Below are positions 3,713 to 36,353 of a stretch of 38,249 nucleotides of DNA, in pieces. Position 1 is the stretch's first letter. Each line of letters begins with the position of its first letter. The position numbers were made by a program, and so were the translations under genes. Source of the stretch: Gammaproteobacteria bacterium bin55 (lineage in GTDB: Bacteria > Pseudomonadota > Gammaproteobacteria > Pseudomonadales > Azotimanducaceae). The notes below the pieces were generated by a model, which was given only the letters and a program-made list of their open reading frames with translations, had not been told where the DNA came from and made no database searches. The stretch lies in NCBI GenBank assembly GCA_002238665.1, contig MPMU01000014.1, positions 1 through 38,249 of the forward strand, in the 5' to 3' direction.

Positions 3713-4180
3713 GAGGGAACTCCCGCAGTCGGACAAATGACTTCCTCTAACGAAGGCAGACTCGATTAACTTTGACACAGTGTCATCTTTTCTTCAGCCA
3801 CTCGGAGTCTGTCTTATAACGGGTTTTCTCGATAGACTCCGAGATTGAGAAGGACGCGTTTTAAGTGCACAGCCTACGACTTTAGCGTGTTTATAACCAA
3901 GCTGCCTCTTGCATTTACGAAGATGTAGTTGTCTCGGATAACTAATTGGATTGATGCGGAACAATTCAATTTCGAGTACATCTAAAATACCCAACGCTTA
4001 ACCCCTCCAGAGGAACTGAAATGCTTGAGATACGTTTGCACTCCAACAAATTGATGTAAGTCAGCGAACGGCTTAAGCTTTTCTTGCCGCTCGCACTTAG
4101 AGCGGCACTCCTTAAAAGTTCATGGCAAGTGCTTGCTCTGACAATCATCAAGCCCTTGATCTAATTGAATTAACTTGTCA
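3713..4180. other. 468-bp gap; inverted repeats, no assigned gene
   Basis: Two minus-strand frames of 60-66 codons (3794-3994 and 3966-4151) are open but match nothing I recognise. The stretch holds a palindrome tgacacagtgtca near 3773-3785 and a 10-bp-arm inverted repeat described separately. A degraded gene is possible. The promoter for the ABC exporter pair must lie in its right half, but no convincing -35/-10 pair was seen. Confidence 0.4.
3801..3843 (+). terminator. Long-loop inverted repeat downstream of the AAA ATPase
   Basis: Arms ctcggagtct (3801-3810) and agactccgag (3834-3843) are perfectly complementary over 10 bp with a 23-nt loop. It lies about 90 bp past the ATPase stop. No clear T-tract follows, so terminator is only one reading; it could also be a protein-binding site or an end of a lost element. 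Confidence 0.3.
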
Positions 4181-6001
4181 ATGAACTTGAATACTCAAAA
4201 AACACATTCTTACCAAAACCTTTGGCTCGCTACGCGTGGGCAACGGGTTAGGTACGCCAATTCAGTGGTGTTTGCAACACTCTCCAATATCTTCCTCATG
4301 GGCGCACCTCTGATTTCAAAATACGCCATTGATGTAATCACTGAAGAAGATTTTGCAGTAGGTCATAGCTGGGTATTGGCGATTTCAAGCTGGTTTTCGT
4401 CTGAACCTTCCTACGTTGGTTATTTATTGATCTCTGCGGCGATCGGTGTGTTTGCAACTGCTTGCACAGGTATATGCCAGTTTATTCGTGACCGACTGTC
4501 CGCCGTTGCGTCAGAACAGATCTGTCTACAGATTCGTGAAGCACTATTTTCACGTCTACACCATGCTCCAAATCAATTCTTCGACGAGTCTGAAACCGGA
4601 GATTTAGTTCAGAGATGCAGTTCAGACATCGAAACTGTTCGCGTCTTCATGCACGCAGATGTCGACGAGTTTGGCAGAGCGATACTGTTCCTCGGGTGCA
4701 TGATTCCTATTCTGCTGTACTTCAACCCGCAGCTCACGTTGGTCTCCCTCTCCCTTATGCCATTCCTTATCGGCAGTCTTATGTATTTCTTCTACAGGAT
4801 CAAGGACTTATTTTTGATCACTGATGAGGCTGAAGCCGCTCTCACCACAGTTATTCAAGAGAATTTGACTGGTATCCGAGTGGTACAAGCTTTCGCTCGA
4901 CAGGACTATGAGCAAGCGAGATTCGATAAGGAGAACGCCAATTTTCGTGAACACTACTACAAGCTAAATCGGACGATGGCCTTCTTCTGGGCAGGGGGTG
5001 ACGTGATCTCTCTAATTCAGGTTGCGTTGGTGTTAGTAGTAGGCTCATATTTTGTGATGCTTGACCAGCTCACTATAGGTAGCTTGTTCATGTTTTTCAC
5101 ACTCGTGTCTATCGTAGTCTGGCGATTACGGCACTTAGGACGACTGGTCTTTGATGCAGGGAAAGCAGTTGTATCTCTTAAACGTATTCGACACATTTTG
5201 AACACAGAAGAAGAGAGTGTTGAGGAAGAACCTGAAAAAGAGACTGTACGAGGCAAAATCGAATTTAAAAATGTGACACTGAGTTATGGCACTGACGATC
5301 GTGCGTTAGATGGCATCAATTTAACGATCGAACCCGGAGAGTTTATCGGCATCGTCGGAAGTCCTGGGTCAGGAAAATCAACACTTATCAGAGCTCTTCT
5401 GAGACTGTATCCAATTGATTCTGGAGTGATAAGTCTTGATGGCCAAGACATCACGGAAGTTAATCGGAAGTGGTTGCGAAAGAGGATTGGCGTCGTTTTG
5501 CAAGATCCGTTTCTGTACAGTCGGACGATTGAAGAAAACCTACTCGTTGCGGATCCAACTGCAATTGAAGGTCGACTTGTACAAGCAACCACAGATGCTG
5601 CAATTCATAACGCGATTATGGAATTCCCCGACCGCTATCAATCATTGATAGGAGAACGAGGTGTAACCCTGTCCGGTGGTCAACGACAAAGATTAGCGAT
5701 TGCCCGAGCGTTGCTCAAGAGACCTTCGGTGCTTGTTCTGGATGACTCGTTATCGGCTGTCGATACCAGCACAGAACGGTTCATCCTAAATGCGTTGAAT
5801 CAATACCGAAGTCGCCATACCGTGATTGTGATTGCACACCGACTCACATCAGTCATGCATGCAGACCGCATCCTTTACATGGAGCGCGGGAAGATCGTTC
5901 AGATGGGCTCTCACGACGAGTTGTCCACCGTTCCTGGTCCCTACCGCCATCTATGTGAACTACAGGAAACTGACAGAGAGTCAGTTCTGATTTCCGCTTA
6001 G
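4181..6001 (+). CDS. ABC exporter half-transporter, subunit with degenerate Walker B
   Basis: A 606-residue type IV ABC exporter half: six membrane helices in about residues 25-310, then a nucleotide-binding domain. Walker A is GSPGSGKST near 392, the Q-loop is LQDPFLYS, the signature is LSGGQRQR near 497, and the H-loop is VIAHRLTS. Walker B reads LVLDDSLSAVD: the catalytic glutamate is aspartate, which marks the degenerate-site subunit of heterodimeric exporters such as TM287/288 or BmrCD. The frame opens at TTG 4175, but ATG 4181 two codons on is the better start; the ribosome site is weak. The partner gene starts 22 bp downstream, so the two are almost certainly co-transcribed. The substrate (drug, lipid or peptide) cannot be told from sequence. 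Confidence 0.92.
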   Translation: MNLNTQKTHSYQNLWLATRGQRVRYANSVVFATLSNIFLMGAPLISKYAIDVITEEDFAVGHSWVLAISSWFSSEPSYVGYLLISAAIGVFATACTGICQFIRDRLSAVASEQICLQIREALFSRLHHAPNQFFDESETGDLVQRCSSDIETVRVFMHADVDEFGRAILFLGCMIPILLYFNPQLTLVSLSLMPFLIGSLMYFFYRIKDLFLITDEAEAALTTVIQENLTGIRVVQAFARQDYEQARFDKENANFREHYYKLNRTMAFFWAGGDVISLIQVALVLVVGSYFVMLDQLTIGSLFMFFTLVSIVVWRLRHLGRLVFDAGKAVVSLKRIRHILNTEEESVEEEPEKETVRGKIEFKNVTLSYGTDDRALDGINLTIEPGEFIGIVGSPGSGKSTLIRALLRLYPIDSGVISLDGQDITEVNRKWLRKRIGVVLQDPFLYSRTIEENLLVADPTAIEGRLVQATTDAAIHNAIMEFPDRYQSLIGERGVTLSGGQRQRLAIARALLKRPSVLVLDDSLSAVDTSTERFILNALNQYRSRHTVIVIAHRLTSVMHADRILYMERGKIVQMGSHDELSTVPGPYRHLCELQETDRESVLISA

Positions 6002-6023
6002 CGAAACTACAACGACGATAGAA

Positions 6024-7904
6024 ATGACAGAAATTAGTACTGATTTTGATCCAATCGATGAGTACAAGGACGCCACAGGTGCGTCTATCAACATAGAGTT
6101 ATGGAAGCGATTATTCAGTTTCACCAAACCCTACAAGAAAGTAATAAAGACTCTCATTTTCTTTGCCGCATTGACCGGCGTGTTCGAGATGATCTTCCCG
6201 CTTATGACGAAATGGATCATCGACGACGTTCAGCAAAATGGCACAGATGCCAATTTAGTCATGTGGTTCCTTCTTTACGTAGCGATGGCAGTAGGTCTCG
6301 CGCTATGTACAGGAACATTCATCTGGTTGGTTTCCAAGCTACGAGTCTACACGAGTCATGACATCCGTAAGGCCGCATTCGAGAATCTTCAGAGACAGTC
6401 TTTTGCGTATTTTGATTACCGACCTGTAGGTTGGATCGTTGCACGGCTAACTTCAGATTGCGAACGTCTCACAAACATTTTGGCTTGGGGTTTATTCGAT
6501 CTGATTTGGGGTACGACGATGATGATCGCAGTCAGCACCGCCCTCATGATCATGCATTGGAAGCTAGCGCTTCTTGTGCTAACGATTGTGCCTGTAGTCT
6601 TCTGGATTTCCGCGAAAATCCGAAAGACGATTCTGCACTCTGCGCGAGAAGTTCGAGCGACAAACTCAAGAATTACTGGTTCGTATAACGAAAGTATCAT
6701 GGGTGTAACAACCAGTAAGGCGTTCACTCGTGAACACGAAAACTTAAGGGATTTTCAAGTGCTTACGAAGCGAATGTACTCAGCATCTGTTAAGAACCTG
6801 ACTTTAGCTGCAATCTATGTACCAATCATTCTCGTCGCTTCGAGTGTCGGTGTAGCCATGGCGCTCGCTTATGGTGGCAGTGAACTCTTGGCAGGCATTA
6901 TCACAGCTGGGTCACTCATTGCAGCCATGACCCTGGTTCAACATTTTTTCGACCCGGTTGAATTTATGGGCCACTGGTTCGCGGAAATGCAGATGGCTCA
7001 GGCATCTGCTGAGAGAATACTTGGAGTCATCGACGCTCAATCTGAGATTGAAGATTCAACCTTGGTCAAGCTGAAGAAAGAACTGGTTGCTCTACAGAAT
7101 TCCAATCCATCAACTGAAATCGCCGAAGACGGCGGAACAAATGACATTTCGTCCATTGAGCTCCAAAACGTTGACTTCGGCTATCAGCAAGATGAACCAG
7201 TGTTGCACGACATTAACCTAACAGTTCATCGCGGCGAGACCATCGCCTTCGTAGGACCGACCGGAGGTGGCAAAACCACCCTAGTCAGTCTTATTAGCAG
7301 GTTCTATGAGCCTACTAGTGGTAGAGTCTTGCTTGACGGCGTTGATTACCGCAATCGCAGTCTTCGTTGGTTACAGTCGAAACTCGGAATCGTTCTGCAG
7401 ACAGCGCACGTATTCAGTGGCACCATCATGGAGAACATCAGATATGGTCGACTAGATGCAACCAATGAGGAAGTCAAGGAAGCCGCGAAACTAACAGGCG
7501 CTGAAGACTTTATTCTCTCGATGCCGGACGCGTACGAATCTGAGGTTGGCGAAAGCGGAAATCGATTATCTTCGGGTCAAAAACAGTTGTTGTCGTATGC
7601 TCGTGCCGTACTTGCTGATCCGTTGATTCTGATACTGGATGAAGCCACTAGTTCGGTAGATACCGAAACAGAGCAGAAAATCCAGAAGAGCATGGAAAGT
7701 CTGGTCAAAGGACGTTTCAGCTTTGTGATTGCACACAGACTGTCTACGATTCAGAAAGCCGACAGAATCTTCTTTATCAAGCAAGGACATGTGGTCGAGG
7801 AGGGAACTCACAGTGAGTTGCTTGCACTTAATGGTGAGTACGCTGCACTCCAATTTAATCAGCACTTCGTCGTCGATCAGTCTGTTGGTTCAGAAGGCTC
7901 TTGA
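6024..7904 (+). CDS. ABC exporter half-transporter, subunit with canonical Walker B
   Basis: A 626-residue partner of the preceding ABC half-transporter. The membrane domain covers about residues 40-330. The nucleotide-binding domain has Walker A GPTGGGKTT near 411, Q-loop LQTAHVFSG, a non-canonical signature LSSGQKQL near 514 (second G of LSGGQ is S), Walker B LILDEATSSVD with the catalytic glutamate intact, and H-loop VIAHRLST. This is the reciprocal of the upstream subunit. Its Walker B works with the upstream LSGGQ as the active site, and its LSSGQ pairs with the upstream DD Walker B as the inactive site. Extra residues at about 350-375 link the domains. It ends 41 bp before the convergent PhyH gene. 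Confidence 0.92.
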   Translation: MTEISTDFDPIDEYKDATGASINIELWKRLFSFTKPYKKVIKTLIFFAALTGVFEMIFPLMTKWIIDDVQQNGTDANLVMWFLLYVAMAVGLALCTGTFIWLVSKLRVYTSHDIRKAAFENLQRQSFAYFDYRPVGWIVARLTSDCERLTNILAWGLFDLIWGTTMMIAVSTALMIMHWKLALLVLTIVPVVFWISAKIRKTILHSAREVRATNSRITGSYNESIMGVTTSKAFTREHENLRDFQVLTKRMYSASVKNLTLAAIYVPIILVASSVGVAMALAYGGSELLAGIITAGSLIAAMTLVQHFFDPVEFMGHWFAEMQMAQASAERILGVIDAQSEIEDSTLVKLKKELVALQNSNPSTEIAEDGGTNDISSIELQNVDFGYQQDEPVLHDINLTVHRGETIAFVGPTGGGKTTLVSLISRFYEPTSGRVLLDGVDYRNRSLRWLQSKLGIVLQTAHVFSGTIMENIRYGRLDATNEEVKEAAKLTGAEDFILSMPDAYESEVGESGNRLSSGQKQLLSYARAVLADPLILILDEATSSVDTETEQKIQKSMESLVKGRFSFVIAHRLSTIQKADRIFFIKQGHVVEEGTHSELLALNGEYAALQFNQHFVVDQSVGSEGS

Positions 7905-7945: not shown

Positions 7946-8905
7946 TTAATTCAGTTTCAACCCGTGTGCTCCGGGACGTAAAACGTCGTAATCTTCACGC
8001 AGGGCTACTTCAGGAGATAAACAGTCAGCGAAGTAGTTCAATGCGACTCCGGGCTGGGAGTAACCAATGAGTTTTTGCATCTCCGGGGAAAGCGTTCGTG
8101 CAATGTTCGGCGGACATGCAAGGAATTGGTTTTCTTCCTGGGCCAAGAAGGAAACTCCATAGTCAATATTCATACCGACCCTGCGCTCATTTGAGAGATT
8201 TGCACCTGCCCCGTGCACGGTCCACCCAGTCCAAATCAGAACACTTCCTTTGGGCATTGTTGCACGGATAGTTTCCTGAGGTGGAGGACCGAACCAAGTC
8301 GTAGTACCAGGATCTTTGTCTGCATCGTAGACATCTTCCCAAAGGTGACTGCCTAAGATCACATGTGTTGCGCCATTCTCTTCCGTGAAGTCAGTCAGCG
8401 CCCACATTGTCTCGACCTGAGGATCAAATCCACAACCCGCTAAATCGTGAACCCATAGACCATTTCCCCGATGTACACCTTGCTGTTCCTGGCCAGGACC
8501 TACGTCGATGATTTGCGTTAAAGTCAATCGCCACGGATAGGTACCCTTCCCTTTCGGACTATGGGTACGACGTACTATCTTGTCTTTATTCTGCTGCTCG
8601 CCGAGCACGGCTTCGCAGGCATCGAGTACTGCGGGATGGCTTATAGCTTTGTGAGATGCGGGAGAACGCGCGACTAGCGCACCTATTCTGCGAGATTTTT
8701 CTAATCCGTGGAGACCATGAGGGGTACTTTCTATATATGGTGCCATCTCCCGACGGATGTCGTCGACATCCACTTCAGTTAGTGCATTTTCAACTATGAC
8801 CGCACCATCGACCGCAATTGCTTGGCGAGTCTTCTTATGGAAATCCGCTATGTCACCAATTTCCAGTGACTTCGCATAGTCGAACCGACGTATAGAAGTG
8901 GTCAT
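7946..8905 (-). CDS. PhyH-family Fe(II)/2-oxoglutarate enzyme with HxG in place of HxD
   Basis: A 319-residue member of the phytanoyl-CoA dioxygenase family, soluble, starting at ATG 8905. The family core is clear: the proximal iron motif is followed by VETMWALTDFTEENGATHVI, and the distal histidine is H231 (WTVHGAG) with the likely 2-oxoglutarate-binding arginine at 241/242 (NERRVGMNI). The proximal motif reads H145-R146-G147 (codons CAT CGG GGA), where the family normally has H-x-D. Loss of that carboxylate, by change to Gly or Ala, is the hallmark of non-haem iron halogenases (SyrB2, WelO5, BesD), which bind halide there. The enzyme may therefore be a halogenase, another atypical 2OG enzyme, or inactive. 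It converges on the ABC exporter pair and stands alone on its strand. Family assignment is sure; chemistry is not. Confidence 0.87.
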   Translation of the reverse strand: MTTSIRRFDYAKSLEIGDIADFHKKTRQAIAVDGAVIVENALTEVDVDDIRREMAPYIESTPHGLHGLEKSRRIGALVARSPASHKAISHPAVLDACEAVLGEQQNKDKIVRRTHSPKGKGTYPWRLTLTQIIDVGPGQEQQGVHRGNGLWVHDLAGCGFDPQVETMWALTDFTEENGATHVILGSHLWEDVYDADKDPGTTTWFGPPPQETIRATMPKGSVLIWTGWTVHGAGANLSNERRVGMNIDYGVSFLAQEENQFLACPPNIARTLSPEMQKLIGYSQPGVALNYFADCLSPEVALREDYDVLRPGAHGLKLN

Positions 8906-9895: not shown

Positions 9896-10429
9896 ATGAC
9901 ACCAGAAATTCTGACGATACTTGGCATAGCTATCGCGATCATAGGATTACTGTTAACTCAGCAATATCGCATTACCAAGTCCTTGCACGGAATCAATTCG
10001 CGTATAGACAACATGAATGAACGCATGGACACCATGAATGAACGCATGGACACCATGAATGAACGCATGGACTCGATGAACGAACGCATCGACTCGATAA
10101 GTGAACGCATGGACTCGATAAGTGAACGCATGGACTCCATGAACGAACGCATCGACTCGATAAGTGAACGCATGGACTCGATAAGTGAACGCATGGACTC
10201 CATGAACGAACGCATTGACAGCGTGAATGATCGTATGGACAGCATGAATGATCGCATAGACACTACCAATGCTGGTACGAATAGTCGTATTGATGATCTC
10301 CGCGACCATGTAGATCAACTTCACCGAGATTCCATGACAGAAAGTAGCCAATTGCACGGACGCGTGGCCAAGGTTGAAGGATTGCTCGAAGGCATTCGGG
10401 ATGCCATCACCAAACCGCAAGCTGCTTGA
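9896..10429 (+). CDS. Membrane-anchored heptad-repeat coiled-coil protein
   Basis: A 177-residue protein from ATG 9896. Residues 5-21 form one hydrophobic helix (ILTILGIAIAIIGLLL), which should anchor it in the inner membrane. Residues 39-122 are twelve near-perfect heptads of the type xMNERMD, ideal for a parallel coiled coil with Met/Ile at core positions and paired E, R and D outside. A less regular coiled coil follows (RIDDLRDHVDQLHRD...), then a short tail ending KPQAA. The heptads are encoded by 21-bp tandem repeats, including two identical 63-bp units. The fold suggests a spacer, scaffold or sensor stalk, as in small phage or Bdr-like proteins; no enzymatic domain is present. The repeats leave both other frames open antisense, which are shadows. 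Function unknown. Confidence 0.72.
   Translation: MTPEILTILGIAIAIIGLLLTQQYRITKSLHGINSRIDNMNERMDTMNERMDTMNERMDSMNERIDSISERMDSISERMDSMNERIDSISERMDSISERMDSMNERIDSVNDRMDSMNDRIDTTNAGTNSRIDDLRDHVDQLHRDSMTESSQLHGRVAKVEGLLEGIRDAITKPQAA
10010..10261 (+). repeat. Twelve tandem 21-bp coding repeats, with a duplicated 63-bp unit
   Basis: Each 21-bp unit encodes one heptad (consensus codons for MNERMDS). Units 10076-10138 and 10139-10201 are each 63 bp (three heptads: NERID, SERMD, SERMD) and are identical base for base. Outer copies at 10202-10261 have diverged (NERID, NDRMD, NDRID), which suggests old copies at the ends and recent expansion in the middle. Confidence 0.95.
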
Positions 10430-14096: not shown

Positions 14097-16325
14097 ATGA
14101 GTACAGCTCGTTGGGACCTCCTCCGATATCAGAGTCCTGTCAATTGGGGCGAGGCACCTGTGCCTTTAATTCCAAGTACTCTCCGAGCAAAATTTGGAGA
14201 AGAAGATGCTCCTCTCTCAGATGAGCTTCTTACGGAATTCCATCTTTGCGTCCGTGACTTGGACACAACATTTTGGCAACGAAACATCTCACTTAGTGCG
14301 ACAGATTTGGGCCAGCTCCTACGTTGGATCGAAAATAAGTTGAGCTCTGTTGCAAATGAAATGCTACTTCACAAAATGAACGCTAAGAGAGTTGAGATTC
14401 ACTCACTAGCGTTGCCTACTCAGCAATTAGATGTACTACGACGCATACTGGATGCCAAGTACATCGATGGATCAGAAGTGCAATTTGAGAAATTACTGAC
14501 TCGATTTGAGTTCGAATATCAATCCATCGCGAAGTTGGCGTGTTTGCTTGAAGCCGCGCAACCTCATCCGCTAGACACTCAGTTTGTGTCTCGTGCAGGC
14601 GACAGCCGAACAACCGCCGGACAAATTTCGCATTTCGTCGAAAGTGGAGCGCGCCTGACCGGAAATCGGTCGGAAGCAACGGCATCACGTGATACCCAAC
14701 CAGGTGCTCCTTCAACACAATACGATTTACGATCCAGTGTAACATCGTCCCTGTATCCGTACGCAGACTTAGGATTGGATCTAGCGGCGGTGCTCGAGAT
14801 GATCCGCTCCCTTAGGGATTCTGCAAAAGATCGGAGAATTATCGACGTGCTGATGACCAGAACATTAGTCACTTCCGGTCGCAAGTCCATGTCCGATATC
14901 TCCAAACAATTCAATATCACCGATGATCGAACGCGTCAGTTGGACATAGACGCCAGAAATCTGATCTACCGAACTAGATCAAGTAAACACTCACTTCTAG
15001 TCAAAGTTGCAGACGTGCTGAAGAAGCGACTCGGTTCGGCGGTACCTGCCAATTCCCAACACCTGCACAATGAAATGACCCTCGCGATTGACGATACGGA
15101 TGATCCTTCACTCCATAAATTTGCGCGTTTGGTATTGCTATCTCTGGCCGGACCGTTTGTAGAGAGACAAGGATGGCTAATCAGTGACCGTAAACTCTGG
15201 TTGAAAACGCCTGTGGCAGTCGAGAAAAAAGTAGCAACAAATGGTTACTTGCGTCCAGAGGATTTAGCACGCACACTAAACGATCTCGGGATCCGAGAGC
15301 AGTTCCATAGAGAGTGGCTTAATAGTTTCGACGAGCTGGTACCTGTCGAGGAAGGTGAGGATAAAGGTGGTTATCTGTACTGTGCAGGAGAGTTCCTAGA
15401 TCGAATTCATACTTTAATGAGCTACTATCCTCGTCCGTTTTCCACGGACGAAATCGTACAGAAACTTGGTAAGCGAAACACCCGTGGCATCCGATTTAGG
15501 ATGTTGAACGACAAGCGTTTCTGGCGAATAAACAAGCAAGCAGATTTTGTACTGGCAAATGCTCCTGGACACAGGCAATACCGAGGCATTACCATCGAAA
15601 TAGAGAACGAAATCAAAGAATCGGGCGGGATGTCAACCGTTGACGAGATCGTTAACAAGCTACATGAGACATTCGGTGTAACTCCGAACTCTGTACTTGC
15701 TTACGTGAGGACTCAATACTTCACCATCGATCCAGACACAAAGCGAGTCTCGAAGAACGAAAAGTCAGATCAACCATTCCACAAGAGTCTAGCGGATACG
15801 GGCAAGTGTTTCTACGTGAACGGACAATGGACGTGGCGAATAACAGTCAACGCCGACTGGTTACGCGGTAGCGGTCGCACCTGTCCGGATGGTTTTGCAT
15901 TGGAATTAGGTTGCGCAGCTGGAGGGATGAAGAGAGTTCCCTCTGACTACGGCGACATAGCAGTCGCGTGGAAACTAAATAGTCCTAGTGGTGCACATAT
16001 CGGGTCGTTGAAGAAAGTCATTGATGACATGAATCTAGATACTGGTGACCATCTATTTGTCCGGAAGATCGGTGAGAAGATCGACTTTTACCCGTTGTTA
16101 GCTACAACGGTTGAACAGAAGGCTACTCGGTTTGAAAAAGCTGCTTTGCTTGTAGGATTTCAAAGTAGTGAAGATATTACTAGCATGGATTGGGGGAAGT
16201 TAGGAGGTGCCATCGGACTCAATGATGAGAATGTCGATGAAGACACCATATACCAACGGTTAGTGAAACGAACAGATCGAGAAGTCGCTGCGCTCTGGCG
16301 AGAGGACGAGGTAATACCACTCTAG
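14097..16325 (+). CDS. Sigma-70 region-4-like HTH protein, probable defence-island regulator
   Basis: A large 742-residue soluble protein. Residues about 250-300 (RRIIDVLMTRTL...KSMSDISKQFNITDDRTRQLDIDARNLI) match the sigma-70 region 4 helix-turn-helix pattern, with the arginine-rich recognition helix TDDRTRQLD in place of SRERVRQIE. No region 2 was seen, so it is not a full sigma factor. Later segments (FSTDEIVQKLGK..FWRINKQADF and STVDEIVNKLHETFGV..YFTIDPDTKRVSKN) look like winged-helix/HARE-HTH modules. Long proteins of this sort occur next to restriction-modification genes, where they may act as DNA binders or regulators. It converges on the endonuclease gene with a 270-bp spacer holding a perfect hairpin. 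The start is ATG 14097. Domain calls are by eye. Confidence 0.75.
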   Translation: MSTARWDLLRYQSPVNWGEAPVPLIPSTLRAKFGEEDAPLSDELLTEFHLCVRDLDTTFWQRNISLSATDLGQLLRWIENKLSSVANEMLLHKMNAKRVEIHSLALPTQQLDVLRRILDAKYIDGSEVQFEKLLTRFEFEYQSIAKLACLLEAAQPHPLDTQFVSRAGDSRTTAGQISHFVESGARLTGNRSEATASRDTQPGAPSTQYDLRSSVTSSLYPYADLGLDLAAVLEMIRSLRDSAKDRRIIDVLMTRTLVTSGRKSMSDISKQFNITDDRTRQLDIDARNLIYRTRSSKHSLLVKVADVLKKRLGSAVPANSQHLHNEMTLAIDDTDDPSLHKFARLVLLSLAGPFVERQGWLISDRKLWLKTPVAVEKKVATNGYLRPEDLARTLNDLGIREQFHREWLNSFDELVPVEEGEDKGGYLYCAGEFLDRIHTLMSYYPRPFSTDEIVQKLGKRNTRGIRFRMLNDKRFWRINKQADFVLANAPGHRQYRGITIEIENEIKESGGMSTVDEIVNKLHETFGVTPNSVLAYVRTQYFTIDPDTKRVSKNEKSDQPFHKSLADTGKCFYVNGQWTWRITVNADWLRGSGRTCPDGFALELGCAAGGMKRVPSDYGDIAVAWKLNSPSGAHIGSLKKVIDDMNLDTGDHLFVRKIGEKIDFYPLLATTVEQKATRFEKAALLVGFQSSEDITSMDWGKLGGAIGLNDENVDEDTIYQRLVKRTDREVAALWREDEVIPL

Positions 16326-16595: not shown

Positions 16596-17888
16596 TCAAC
16601 GCTGAGAAAGATTACGCTCAAAAAAACGAATCCAGGCTCGAATCGACTGAATTCGTCGTTCCTGTGTATTTTGGGCGAGTGAGTACGGTTTCCAGTCCCG
16701 ACTACCCGGATCTCGACCCCCCAGGAGGCTGTTAGGAACCGATTCTGAGAAGATTTTCTCGGCAAGCTCAAAAAGTAATGCCTTGTCTGCAAGACGATTG
16801 AGGTTTCTTCCATAGTCAGTAAGAACCAAGCCTTCAGAGCGCCTCTCGGCAAGTCTTAACCACCTAAGTACATTCCAGTAGTAATCATGCTGGCGTGGAG
16901 TCAAATCGTACTTAGTAAAGAGGTCATATAACGTGATCGGTTCTGAGTCACCTAGCAATCTAAAACTGTCAAGAATCTTCGCAAATTCGTCTGCTTGTGG
17001 AAATGGAACTTTGGTGTCAGCAAAACCTGGGACCGCTGGTAAGGACTTGATTTCCTCCCAATAGTCAATCTGCTCATCCACCGACGGCGCAATCCTTGCT
17101 CGTCTGTATTGAGAGAAGTCAAACTTGAAAATTCCTTGTGTCTCGGCATTTTCAAGCACGAACGGAACGAAGTGATAGAGACCCGTACACGATTCATAAA
17201 ACAGAATGAATGTGTGGACAGGTTTTCCTTTTACGACATAGTTTTGGTAGTGGAGTTGTGGGTACAGGAGTTGTCGAAGGTTCATGTTGTTCTCTACCAC
17301 ACTCTTTACTTCTACCAAATAAAGACCGTTCCGTCCTTCGTATCCGCCATCCACCTCAATCTGAACATTTCCAATTTCGTATTCAACTGTTTGCAGGCGT
17401 TCGGGAAGACGCGGAAGTGAAAAGTGAAACTCGCGAGAGTACTCTCTACCGCGTAGGACTAGCTCAACAGATTCTCCAAATACCCAATCCAACATGCCGC
17501 TTATATGTGCAGCATCCAGTGCCTTGGATTCTGATGAGTACCCTCCTCCAGCCAGGACCTGAATATGAGCTGGAACGCTAAATTCGCTCATTTCAATTGG
17601 GTCTTCATCGGTAAAGAGCGAAGGATTAATATCGAGAAACGGATCTGTCTTAGCAATTCGGTAGACGCCGTTTCTAATTGCCAAAACCGACAGATTTTGA
17701 TCACTGAGTGACTTCGGGACATGACCTCTAAAGTCAAGCTTGCAGGCGATACGTGGCTCTATGTGTCGTTCTTTGATCATAGAGGCATCTAGGTCATAGA
17801 AACCTGAACGATTGATGGTTTCAACGATCTTGGGTTGCGACTCAAACAAGCCTTGCCAGAACGAATTGACGGTAGTTCTGGGAGCCAT
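16596..17888 (-). CDS. Type II restriction endonuclease, PD-(D/E)XK fold
   Basis: A 430-residue protein from ATG 17888. IEVDGGYEG followed by LYLVEVKS supplies D180, E193 and K195, the PD-(D/E)XK nuclease active site. The N-terminal part (SESKALDAAHISGML) and the C-terminal winged-helix-like part (YDLFTKYDLTPRQHDYYWNVLRWL) look like DNA-binding segments. This architecture belongs to a group of restriction enzymes found beside Dam-like methylases. Its gene starts 17 bp after the methylase stop on the same strand, with a GAGG site within the gap, so translation is probably coupled to the methylase. Cleavage at GATC is inferred only from the partner and not shown by sequence. Confidence 0.82.
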   Translation of the reverse strand: MAPRTTVNSFWQGLFESQPKIVETINRSGFYDLDASMIKERHIEPRIACKLDFRGHVPKSLSDQNLSVLAIRNGVYRIAKTDPFLDINPSLFTDEDPIEMSEFSVPAHIQVLAGGGYSSESKALDAAHISGMLDWVFGESVELVLRGREYSREFHFSLPRLPERLQTVEYEIGNVQIEVDGGYEGRNGLYLVEVKSVVENNMNLRQLLYPQLHYQNYVVKGKPVHTFILFYESCTGLYHFVPFVLENAETQGIFKFDFSQYRRARIAPSVDEQIDYWEEIKSLPAVPGFADTKVPFPQADEFAKILDSFRLLGDSEPITLYDLFTKYDLTPRQHDYYWNVLRWLRLAERRSEGLVLTDYGRNLNRLADKALLFELAEKIFSESVPNSLLGGRDPGSRDWKPYSLAQNTQERRIQSIRAWIRFFERNLSQR

Positions 17889-17905
17889 CGCCAGTGTTCC
17901 TCAAC

Positions 17906-18760
17906 CTAGCGGTAGTTACGAACGATGATTTCTGGCACTGGACCTCGTCCGTGTCCCTGCGAATTGACTGACCTCTTCGCTGAAACCGTAATCACGTTGA
18001 AGGCTTCCTCTTTCTCATACAGTGCTTTTATCCATGGTGCACTCGAATTTGAAAGCATGAATTTGACTTTCCTCTTAGTCAAGCGCTGGCAGAATTCAAA
18101 CAACCTAATCTGCTCCGCTTTATCGAAGCCTGTATTCGTATAACTCCGGAAGCTAGAGCTCTCGGAGATTGGTTCGTAGGGAGGATCGAGATATACGAAC
18201 GATTGTTTGTCGAGCATGTCTAACGATTCGCTGTAGTCGAACTGCGTGATCTTTACATTCTCAAGCGCTTTTGCACATGCCCGTAGAGTGCTCTCTGAGA
18301 CGATATTTGGTTTCTTGTAATTACCAAAAGGGGTATTGAACTGTCCTTTTGAGTTAACGCGAAACAGACCGTTAAAGCAGGTCTTATTCAGATAGATCAT
18401 CCTGCTCGCTCTTTCTACAGGAGACAGTGCGAAAAAGCACCTCTCTCGGTCTAGAGCGCGGATTTGGTAGAAGTACTCGGGAGTGTTTTGGTGTTTCTCT
18501 AGTGACTCGATTAATGCATCTACGTTATTCTGTACAACGCGATAGGCATTTATGAGTTCAAGGTTTGAGTCATTGAGCCAGAACCGGAGATCGGGACATT
18601 TTCGGACCAGCGAAAAGAGCATTGCCCCCCCCCCGACAAAAAGCTCAATATACGATATAAACTTCGATGTACATGGTATCAGTTGGTGCAATTCATGTAA
18701 TAATTGGTTTTTACCTCCAACCCACTTCAAAAATGGTCGAGGAATTGGATGGGAAGACAC
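17906..18760 (-). CDS. Dam-like DNA adenine methyltransferase with internal G10 tract
   Basis: A 284-residue class alpha N6-adenine methylase. Motif X is PFLKWVGGKNQLL (9-21), motif I is IELFVGGGAMLF (39-50), motif IV is VYLDPPYEPI (DPPY at 192-195), and the Dam-type segment TCFNGLFRVNSKGQFNTPFG lies at about 128-146. These are typical of GATC methylases (Dam/DpnM type). The start is GTG 18760; a stop is in frame 30 nt upstream and the first internal ATG is at residue 47. The three glycines of motif I are encoded by an unbroken run of ten Gs (plus strand Cs 18625-18634), which is likely to slip. Three GATC sites lie 50-80 bp upstream. The enzyme protects the host from the endonuclease encoded just downstream. 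Confidence 0.93.
   Translation of the reverse strand: MSSHPIPRPFLKWVGGKNQLLHELHQLIPCTSKFISYIELFVGGGAMLFSLVRKCPDLRFWLNDSNLELINAYRVVQNNVDALIESLEKHQNTPEYFYQIRALDRERCFFALSPVERASRMIYLNKTCFNGLFRVNSKGQFNTPFGNYKKPNIVSESTLRACAKALENVKITQFDYSESLDMLDKQSFVYLDPPYEPISESSSFRSYTNTGFDKAEQIRLFEFCQRLTKRKVKFMLSNSSAPWIKALYEKEEAFNVITVSAKRSVNSQGHGRGPVPEIIVRNYR
18625..18634 (-). repeat. Homopolymer G10 inside the methylase SAM motif
   Basis: Ten consecutive Cs on the plus strand read as GGG GGG GGG G in the methylase at residues 43-46 (V-G-G-G-A). In the length seen here the gene is in frame. Loss or gain of one G would cut the protein at about residue 45. Confidence 0.95.
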
Positions 18761-35285: not shown

Positions 35286-36353
35286 ATGACGGTCGACTGG
35301 AAACCCATTGAGGATCTGCCTCCTCTCAAGCAATCGACAAGCGTGCGGTTGTTAAACGAACGAACCGAACAATGGGTAAAAGTTCGAGAACAGTTGGAAG
35401 CTCGAGAAATGGACAAGACCCCTCTCGAGATTTGGCTCAGTGAACGCAATCGTAGCTTCGCCATCGGCACAGGTGAAGTCGAAGGTCTCTACACGCTGAA
35501 GCGAGGGATCACCGAACAGCTGATCACTGAGGGACTCCACGGTATTGAGAGTTCCCACACCTTTGAGGACATCGATCGTTCAACCTTGCAAGGCTTGCTC
35601 GCCGATCAGGAAGAGACGCTCAAGACCGTTTTTGACATGGTGAAAAACGACGTTCCGTTGAGTCACTACTCCATTCGCGGACTCCATGCGAAGATAACCG
35701 AGCATCAGGACACCGCGACGGGCATTGACCCGTTTGGACGGCACACCCACATGCCGCTTTTAAAAGGTCAGTACAAACTTAGACCCAACAATCCTCGTCG
35801 TCCGGACGGCGAGATTCACCCCTACTGTCCTCCGGAGCAGACTCACGGTGAGATGGAACGTCTGTTGACCATGCATCGAGAACACGAGAAAGCGAACGTC
35901 GACATGATTGCCGAGGCCGCATGGCTACACCATCGGTTTGCCCAGATCCATCCGTTCCAGGACGGCAACGGCCGTATCGCTCGTCTGCTCATGGCCTATG
36001 TTTTTGTCAAGGAAGGCGGGTTCCCGCCTGTGGTTAGTCCCGCCAATCGCGATCAGTACATCGATGCCCTTGAACGCGCTGACGAAGGTGACCTGCAGCT
36101 ATTCGTTGATTTTCTTGCAGACGAAAGTTCCAGATCTGCTGTTCGCGCGATCACCATTGGTGACAACATCGTCAGGGGAGTCAATCGATATATTCACGCG
36201 AACCGAGGAGTCACGATCGACAATCAGTACTTCCCGCCCGGTACGCCTGAAGCCGACGGCTTACATCTTCCTTTGGAAACCGATATCGAAGAAAAGGAAG
36301 TAACCGATAAAGGAAGACCCAAGAACGACGACGATCACAGCATCGATCTATAA
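35286..36353 (+). CDS. Fic family protein with N-terminal inhibitory motif
   Basis: A 355-residue Fic protein. The catalytic loop is HPFQDGNGRIAR (H222 to R233), a full match to HPFx(D/E)GNGRxxR, so it should transfer AMP or a related nucleotide moiety to a protein hydroxyl. Near the N-terminus TGEVEG (62-67) fits the (S/T)xxxE(G/N) inhibitory motif whose glutamate blocks ATP binding. This makes it an autoinhibited (class II) Fic. The C-terminal tail is acidic and polar. Base composition and codon use look GC-richer than neighbouring genes, which suggests transfer. A tiny HTH gene converges 38 bp away. The target is unknown; it may be a stand-alone regulator or a defence/toxin-type gene. Confidence 0.93.
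   Translation: MTVDWKPIEDLPPLKQSTSVRLLNERTEQWVKVREQLEAREMDKTPLEIWLSERNRSFAIGTGEVEGLYTLKRGITEQLITEGLHGIESSHTFEDIDRSTLQGLLADQEETLKTVFDMVKNDVPLSHYSIRGLHAKITEHQDTATGIDPFGRHTHMPLLKGQYKLRPNNPRRPDGEIHPYCPPEQTHGEMERLLTMHREHEKANVDMIAEAAWLHHRFAQIHPFQDGNGRIARLLMAYVFVKEGGFPPVVSPANRDQYIDALERADEGDLQLFVDFLADESSRSAVRAITIGDNIVRGVNRYIHANRGVTIDNQYFPPGTPEADGLHLPLETDIEEKEVTDKGRPKNDDDHSIDL

Follow-up and report, generated by a model that had tools for sequence, protein, structure and literature searches.

The PhyH family contains members without the aspartate of the iron triad, SyrB2, itself a PhyH protein, being one example. For PrhA, the iron ligands have been reported as His130, Asp132 and His214, and the residues binding alphaKG as Arg72, Gln127, Thr167 and Arg226 (PMC5760668). 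According to the accessible text of several reports, known 2OG halogenases carry HxG or HxA, motifs that have served as a discovery filter (PMC11186838, PMC4019311, PMC2767507), including in genome mining for 2OG halogenases (PMC11186838). Human AspH is described as a hydroxylase with an HxG motif, and the accessible parts of the reports record no halogenation by it (PMC6817910, PMC13168262). The carboxylate site of AspH is occupied by a water that Asp721 holds, the D721A variant is much less active (PMC13168262), and this water has been suggested to impede the binding of halide (PMC13168262, PMC6817910, PMC8252765). The original prediction for the gene studied here took Gly or Ala in place of the HxD carboxylate as the structural mark of a halogenase; both are indeed known halogenase states (PMC11186838), but the hydroxylase AspH carries HxG as well.

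The gene lies in a 38,249-nucleotide stretch of bacterial DNA, the whole of which is called the window here. Its active-site codons are located as follows.

Positions 7946-8905, minus strand: PhyH-family Fe(II)/2OG enzyme gene, 319 aa (ORF and translation, PF05721 match, AlphaFold2 model)
Positions 8465-8473, minus strand: proximal motif H145-R146-G147, with Gly in the aspartate position (codons CAT CGG GGA, 8473-8465)
Positions 8411-8413, minus strand: Glu165 codon, an invariant clade-specific acid on core strand 163-169 and candidate stand-in for Asp (alignment)
Positions 8213-8215, minus strand: distal H231 codon (H in 52/52 alignment rows)
Positions 8180-8182, minus strand: R242 codon, the 2OG-binding arginine equivalent to PrhA Arg226 (R in 52/52 rows; alignment to PrhA)
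Positions 8366-8368, minus strand: T180 codon, aligned with 2OG-binding PrhA Thr167 (T in 52/52 rows)
Positions 8480-8482, minus strand: Q142 codon, aligned with 2OG-binding PrhA Gln127 (Q in 10/10 HxG and 20/20 HxD rows)
Positions 8687-8689, minus strand: R73 codon, aligned with 2OG-binding PrhA Arg72 (R in 52/52 rows)

The window protein matched the PF05721 PhyH profile at 87.5 bits (cut-off 22). With PhyH as the sole Pfam family at E 0.001, it did not fall into the AspH sequence family, and NCBIfam gave no family match at E 1. The canonical HxD...H iron triad is absent, as it is throughout the clade described below, and HRG stands at 145-147 instead. By alignment, the PrhA residues listed above correspond to H145, G147, H231, R73, Q142, T180 and R242; the PrhA chain indices in the alignments equal the published numbers plus 16, an offset deduced from H130 and V150L. 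The ORF and the alignment thus bear out the predicted HRG motif together with an intact H231 and 2OG arginine (R242).

In the 52-row family alignment, position 147 is Gly in all 10 HxG rows, Ala in all 22 sister rows and Asp in all 20 outgroup rows, and H145, H231, R73, T180 and R242 are invariant throughout. The Gln three residues ahead of the proximal His is replaced by Leu in 22/22 HxA rows, with an insertion there. Since all the aligned Fe/2OG residues, Q142 included, are retained in the HxG members, these lack the carboxylate ligand only.

Concerning the spread of the motif, a scan of genome contigs yielded 8 relatives at 64-65% identity, all with HRG, and a search of 97 related genomes placed an orthologue in 10 of the 18 genomes of the window's genus, its own included, all ten reading HRGNGLW; the two sets probably overlap in genomes, as L001-L008 seemingly equal some of the G handles and were not recounted. 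The 206 genomes of the bacterial family gave 34 matches at E 1e-70 or better, of which 32 were readable: 10 with HRG, in the window's genus, and 22, in other genera, whose third residue is Ala (21 HRA, 1 HKA). The two unread matches were G129 and G240, both lacking a locus, the G240 copy having one internal stop; three weaker matches in related genomes also had no locus (the second copy of G048, G031 and G024), and L017 and the larger regions L087-L106 duplicate loci that the count includes elsewhere. The next-nearest tier, at 35-41% identity by tblastn, carried HxD in all 18 copies read.

In the 52-row tree, the HxG rows (10, support 95) and the HxA rows (22, support 96) fell on one side of a branch with support 98, against the 20 HxD rows, which include two paralogues of the window genome (L011 and L013); the tree came from a quick search with SH-aLRT support only and a midpoint root. 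A minimum of two changes among D, G and A is needed on it. These data demonstrate that HxG/HxA is a conserved trait of one clade beside HxD enzymes, which answers in the affirmative the question, raised with the original prediction, of whether HxG marks a conserved clade. The best explanation of the pattern includes loss of the triad Asp in the ancestor of the clade, which would have left HxG in the window's genus and HxA in sister genera.

Samples of the order, class and phylum, with few candidates scored per genome, gave no clade member outside the bacterial family at the cut-offs used: 6/390 order genomes matched, all within the family; 1/369 class genomes, the window itself; and 3/398 phylum genomes, of which the two besides the window read HRD. 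A motif pattern search matched 14 of 58 relatives (11 clade genes by position and 3 elsewhere), and a backward control pattern matched once. A literature search covering titles and abstract openings found no description of an HxG/HxA clade.

The window genome is a metagenome-assembled one of 2.93 Mb, 87.8% complete and in 183 contigs, a state that might favour explaining Gly147 as a lone mutation or assembly error. HRG, however, recurs in ten genomes of the genus, with Ala in 22 from other genera. The lone mutant among HxD homologues that would have undone the original prediction was therefore not what was found, as all 32 readable close homologues share the Asp loss, and the chance of such an accident is negligible.

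Further, Gly147 is encoded by three Gly codons over its 10 copies and Ala147 by three Ala codons over its 22. In the HxA branch, dN/dS had a median of 0.14 and a range of 0.06-0.23 in the 104 usable of 231 pairs, so this branch is under purifying selection. Synonymous sites of the HxG copies were saturated, leaving 0/45 pairs usable, and the case against decay in that branch therefore rests on its invariant residues and synonymous codons. It is unlikely that the gene has simply lost its function, since the trait is conserved across the clade, HxG members retain the rest of the Fe/2OG core, codon changes at 147 are synonymous and dN/dS in the HxA branch is low. The earlier argument that the intact remainder of the gene speaks against loss of function is accordingly upheld.

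A conserved PhyH protein without catalytic activity, for example a binding protein or partner subunit, would agree with the report, in its accessible text, that many 2OG enzymes are inactivated once a triad residue is lost (PMC2767507), and with the HxA branch having lost its 2OG-binding Gln. A pseudo-subunit should, however, lose metal residues more freely than is seen here, where the iron histidines and three 2OG-pocket residues never vary. The low dN/dS of the usable HxA pairs also counts against such a protein, as does the absence of another PhyH gene immediately next to the window copy, and we regard this explanation as improbable.

The window genome gave 38 PhyH matches, an unusually large repertoire for 2.9 Mb; with the window protein as query, some family members showed still more first-look candidates, e.g., 93 in G036. 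Loci were obtained for 30 of the 38 matches, and 32 distinct PhyH ORFs were recovered, of which 28 were readable at the motif (4 were not): 26 HxD, the window gene with HRG, and one ambiguous HGG. Gly at 147 is therefore unusual even in this PhyH-rich genome. The ambiguous case is L023 (G000:C143:2238-2852, plus strand), which has LHGGW at the proximal-motif column and is a possible HxG; a nearby YHD makes its alignment ambiguous.

The AlphaFold2 model, built from 28 sequences (the window protein, 8 close relatives and 19 viral-contig PhyH proteins), had a mean pLDDT of 79.1 and a pTM of 0.83; an earlier model from 9 close sequences (mean pLDDT 45.3) was set aside along with its fold search. 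Within the model, pLDDT averaged 92 in the block with strand 163-169, 75 in the motif block 141-150 and 58 in loop 151-160, and was below 50 at 109-121. None of the best 50 Foldseek matches listed is a named halogenase; they include AsqJ, DhiD, PrhA, SptF, OkaE and oxygenases like these, at a TM by query of 0.65-0.70. SyrB2 appeared at E 0.35 only, when PDB sequences were searched with a profile.

Besides position 147, column 165 separates the clade from its relatives: Glu occupies it in all 32 clade rows, against Asn in 19 and Ser in 1 of the 20 HxD rows, and in none of the other 27 readable PhyH ORFs of the window genome is Glu found there. Glu165 aligns with PrhA Asn152, which is reported to hydrogen-bond the substrate (PMC5760668). 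Asn150 of SptF, described as binding substrates (PMC8748661), probably lies in the same column, judging from the L013 alignment and a presumed numbering offset of two. In the accessible text of a QM/MM study of AsqJ, Asn157, Gln131 and Asn70 are named as hydrogen-bonding Asp136, the iron-bound succinate carboxylate, or the substrate (PMC6015105). Asn157 would belong to the Glu165 column, because it precedes the succinate-orienting Thr172 by 15 residues, as in PrhA (152/167) and here (165/180), and the list order in that paper suggests that it is the partner of the third-ligand Asp136. Given these column roles in PrhA, SptF and AsqJ, an acid at 165 is probably near the place vacated by Asp147.

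Glu165 may thus replace the lost carboxylate, either as an iron ligand or as the holder of an iron-bound water. A further Asp or Glu acting as third ligand is what the original prediction had named as able to overturn it; Glu165 is a candidate for that part and the chief doubt about a halogenase. Taken alone, the joint change at 147 and 165 is weak evidence and may be a coincidence, since 52 columns in all show fixed differences between clade and HxD rows. A rebuilt iron site, in which the two usual histidines would be joined by a carboxylate shifted out of the HxD loop onto the adjacent core strand (Glu165), a natural alternative triad reached through Asp loss, is a doubtful proposal; if true, it would make HxG/HxA alone an unsafe mark of halogenases. 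His153 and Asp154 were considered as replacement ligands and rejected, as position 154 is Asn in 3/10 HxG and 3/22 HxA copies and position 153 is Tyr in 3/22 HxA copies.

Our best explanation, to which we give somewhat less than an even chance, is an active Fe(II)/2OG enzyme of the PhyH fold in which Glu165 makes up for Asp147 and which oxidises, most likely hydroxylates, a small substrate; metal binding, the Glu165 role, hydroxylation and the kind of substrate are what we infer here. Iron would be held in its usual place by H145 and H231, while Glu165, on the neighbouring core strand, would bind the iron or, like Asp721 of AspH, keep a water in the vacant site. 2OG and O2 would then give Fe(IV)=O, followed by oxidation, most likely hydroxylation, of the substrate. 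The coincidence of Asp loss and Glu165 gain in the same 32/32 clade rows favours this oxygenase, as does the retention of the 2OG-pocket residues (R73, T180 and R242 in 52/52 rows, Q142 in 10/10 HxG rows). Against it stand the HxA members without the 2OG-binding Gln, the presence of only Gly and Ala at 147, which is what a halogenase needs, and an acid at 165 that could bind a basic substrate and is compatible with a halogenase. For FIH, some activity is reported to survive the Asp-to-Gly change and none the Asp-to-Ala change (PMC8252765); because the clade uses both residues, ordinary hydroxylases in an HxA branch are hard to reconcile with this result, except with help from Glu165.

A 2OG-dependent halogenase (or an enzyme of azide/nitrate transfer) is possible as well, although clearly on the less probable side. 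A halide in the iron site vacated by Asp147 would rebound onto the substrate radical, and Glu165 would bind the substrate, e.g., an amine. Apart from the halogenase motifs themselves, the presence of both HxG and HxA in one clade, each fixed in its branch with synonymous codon variation, supports such an enzyme, and two plant 2OG enzymes are reported to have gained chlorination through a single D-to-G or D-to-A change (PMC12346261). An invariant acid so near the halide site would, however, disfavour an anion unless neutralised. The published record is also divided: besides AspH with its HxG, the D414A and D414G variants of P4H are described as performing neither hydroxylation nor halogenation (PMC2767507), and for a BesD-related hydroxylase, the accessible text states that Gly alone is insufficient for efficient halogenation (PMC13244439). 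From these P4H and BesD-related variants, it follows that the HxG/HxA motif does not suffice for halogenation. The Foldseek matches listed and the marginal SyrB2 score weigh on the same side, as does the result that no NRPS, PKS or carrier protein gene occurred among the chosen neighbour genes scanned. The original prediction of a candidate halogenase rather than a hydroxylase consequently stands as a possibility, strengthened by the conserved HxG/HxA clade, but it is not established, given that AspH hydroxylates with HxG and that Glu165 is invariant. The probability left over by the oxygenase, the halogenase and the non-catalytic protein belongs to schemes not listed here.

Concerning the neighbourhood, the genes of the GC-rich regions were predicted with a simple script, and these calls are rough, the PhyH ORF being missed in L101 and L103. 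In 9 of 21 HxA genomes, all nine of one genus, the PhyH gene has a short-chain dehydrogenase (identified by Pfam on one copy) as its divergent neighbour, the matched ends being ~70-150 bases apart; the count is to be read with the HxA genome G048 (L049) outside the sequences searched and with some HxA contigs ending close to the gene. In one further HxA genome, the dehydrogenase lies ~2.5 kb away. The divergently adjoining dehydrogenase fits an alcohol product, and with it the oxygenase carrying Glu165, slightly better. HxA members are also ~60 residues longer at the C terminus, and the extension had no Pfam match in the two scanned.

Four of the six genus regions (L089-L092) carry, downstream of the PhyH gene and on its strand, a set of genes for an amidohydrolase, a family-5 solute-binding protein, two permeases and a CoA-transferase, and in two of them the set directly adjoins the gene; the families were assigned by Pfam on the L090 copies, the others being grouped by BLAST. 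The amidohydrolase/permease/CoA-transferase set is not beside the gene in the window. As a guide to the substrate, the neighbourhood was not conclusive. In L089 (10358-18222) and L092 (10899-18999), a tandem family of ~612-615-aa proteins lies beside the PhyH gene, and the one L090 member scanned had no Pfam match.

In the window, two consecutive exporter-type ABC half-transporter genes (4175-7904, plus strand) are convergent with the PhyH gene, whose end is 41 bases from theirs at 7904. The window also holds a 177-aa ORF at 9896-10429 (plus strand), made largely of repeated NERMDS/SERMDS-like heptads and probably a coiled coil, and a Fic/DOC-family protein of 355 aa at 35286-36353 (plus strand). 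A type II restriction-modification pair, namely a D12-class DNA methyltransferase and a REase_II/DUF6997 protein, occupies 16596-18760 (minus strand) and is adjoined by a 742-aa ORF (14097-16325, plus strand) for which neither Pfam (at E 0.001) nor PADLOC gave a match.

The window enzyme may halogenate its substrate or bind its iron in an unusual way. The clade is a natural test of the HxG/HxA filter, as it offers both states in one lineage, an HxD sister group and an invariant acid possibly doing the work of Asp. If its members halogenate, they would form a free-standing bacterial PhyH halogenase family, for which the searches here gave no named halogenase relative; if they do not, they would be another natural oxygenase without the motif carboxylate after AspH, or a new triad layout. 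With either outcome, the determinant of halogenation versus hydroxylation becomes testable in a natural series.

Compared with the solved PhyH oxygenases (PrhA/AusE, AsqJ, SptF, TlxJ, EasH and DhiD), the clade is alike in fold, in the two histidines and in the aligned 2OG-pocket residues; it differs in having HxG/HxA where these have HxD (HxE in EasH), and Glu at column 165 where those in the alignments have Asn (His in DhiD). Nearest outside the clade is the HxD sister group of the same bacterial family (L053-L068, L107 and L108), at 35-41% identity, which has the QEENQ-L---P block in common with it and lacks window-protein positions 108-121 in most aligned rows. This group carries Asp at 147 and Asn at 165 (19/20 HxD rows, with L011 and L013 included), in contrast to the Gly/Ala and Glu of the clade. 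With halogenases of the SyrB2/WelO5/BesD type, the clade shares the two-His iron motif and the Gly/Ala for Asp/Glu, which all 32 rows fit; it differs from them in having no notable sequence match, an invariant Glu165 and no carrier-protein context among the scanned neighbours. In human AspH, with which there is no sequence match, Asp721 stands four residues before the distal His, whereas Glu165 is placed elsewhere; the HxG motif and the two-His iron are nevertheless alike, and an acid may lie near the vacant site here as Asp721 does there.
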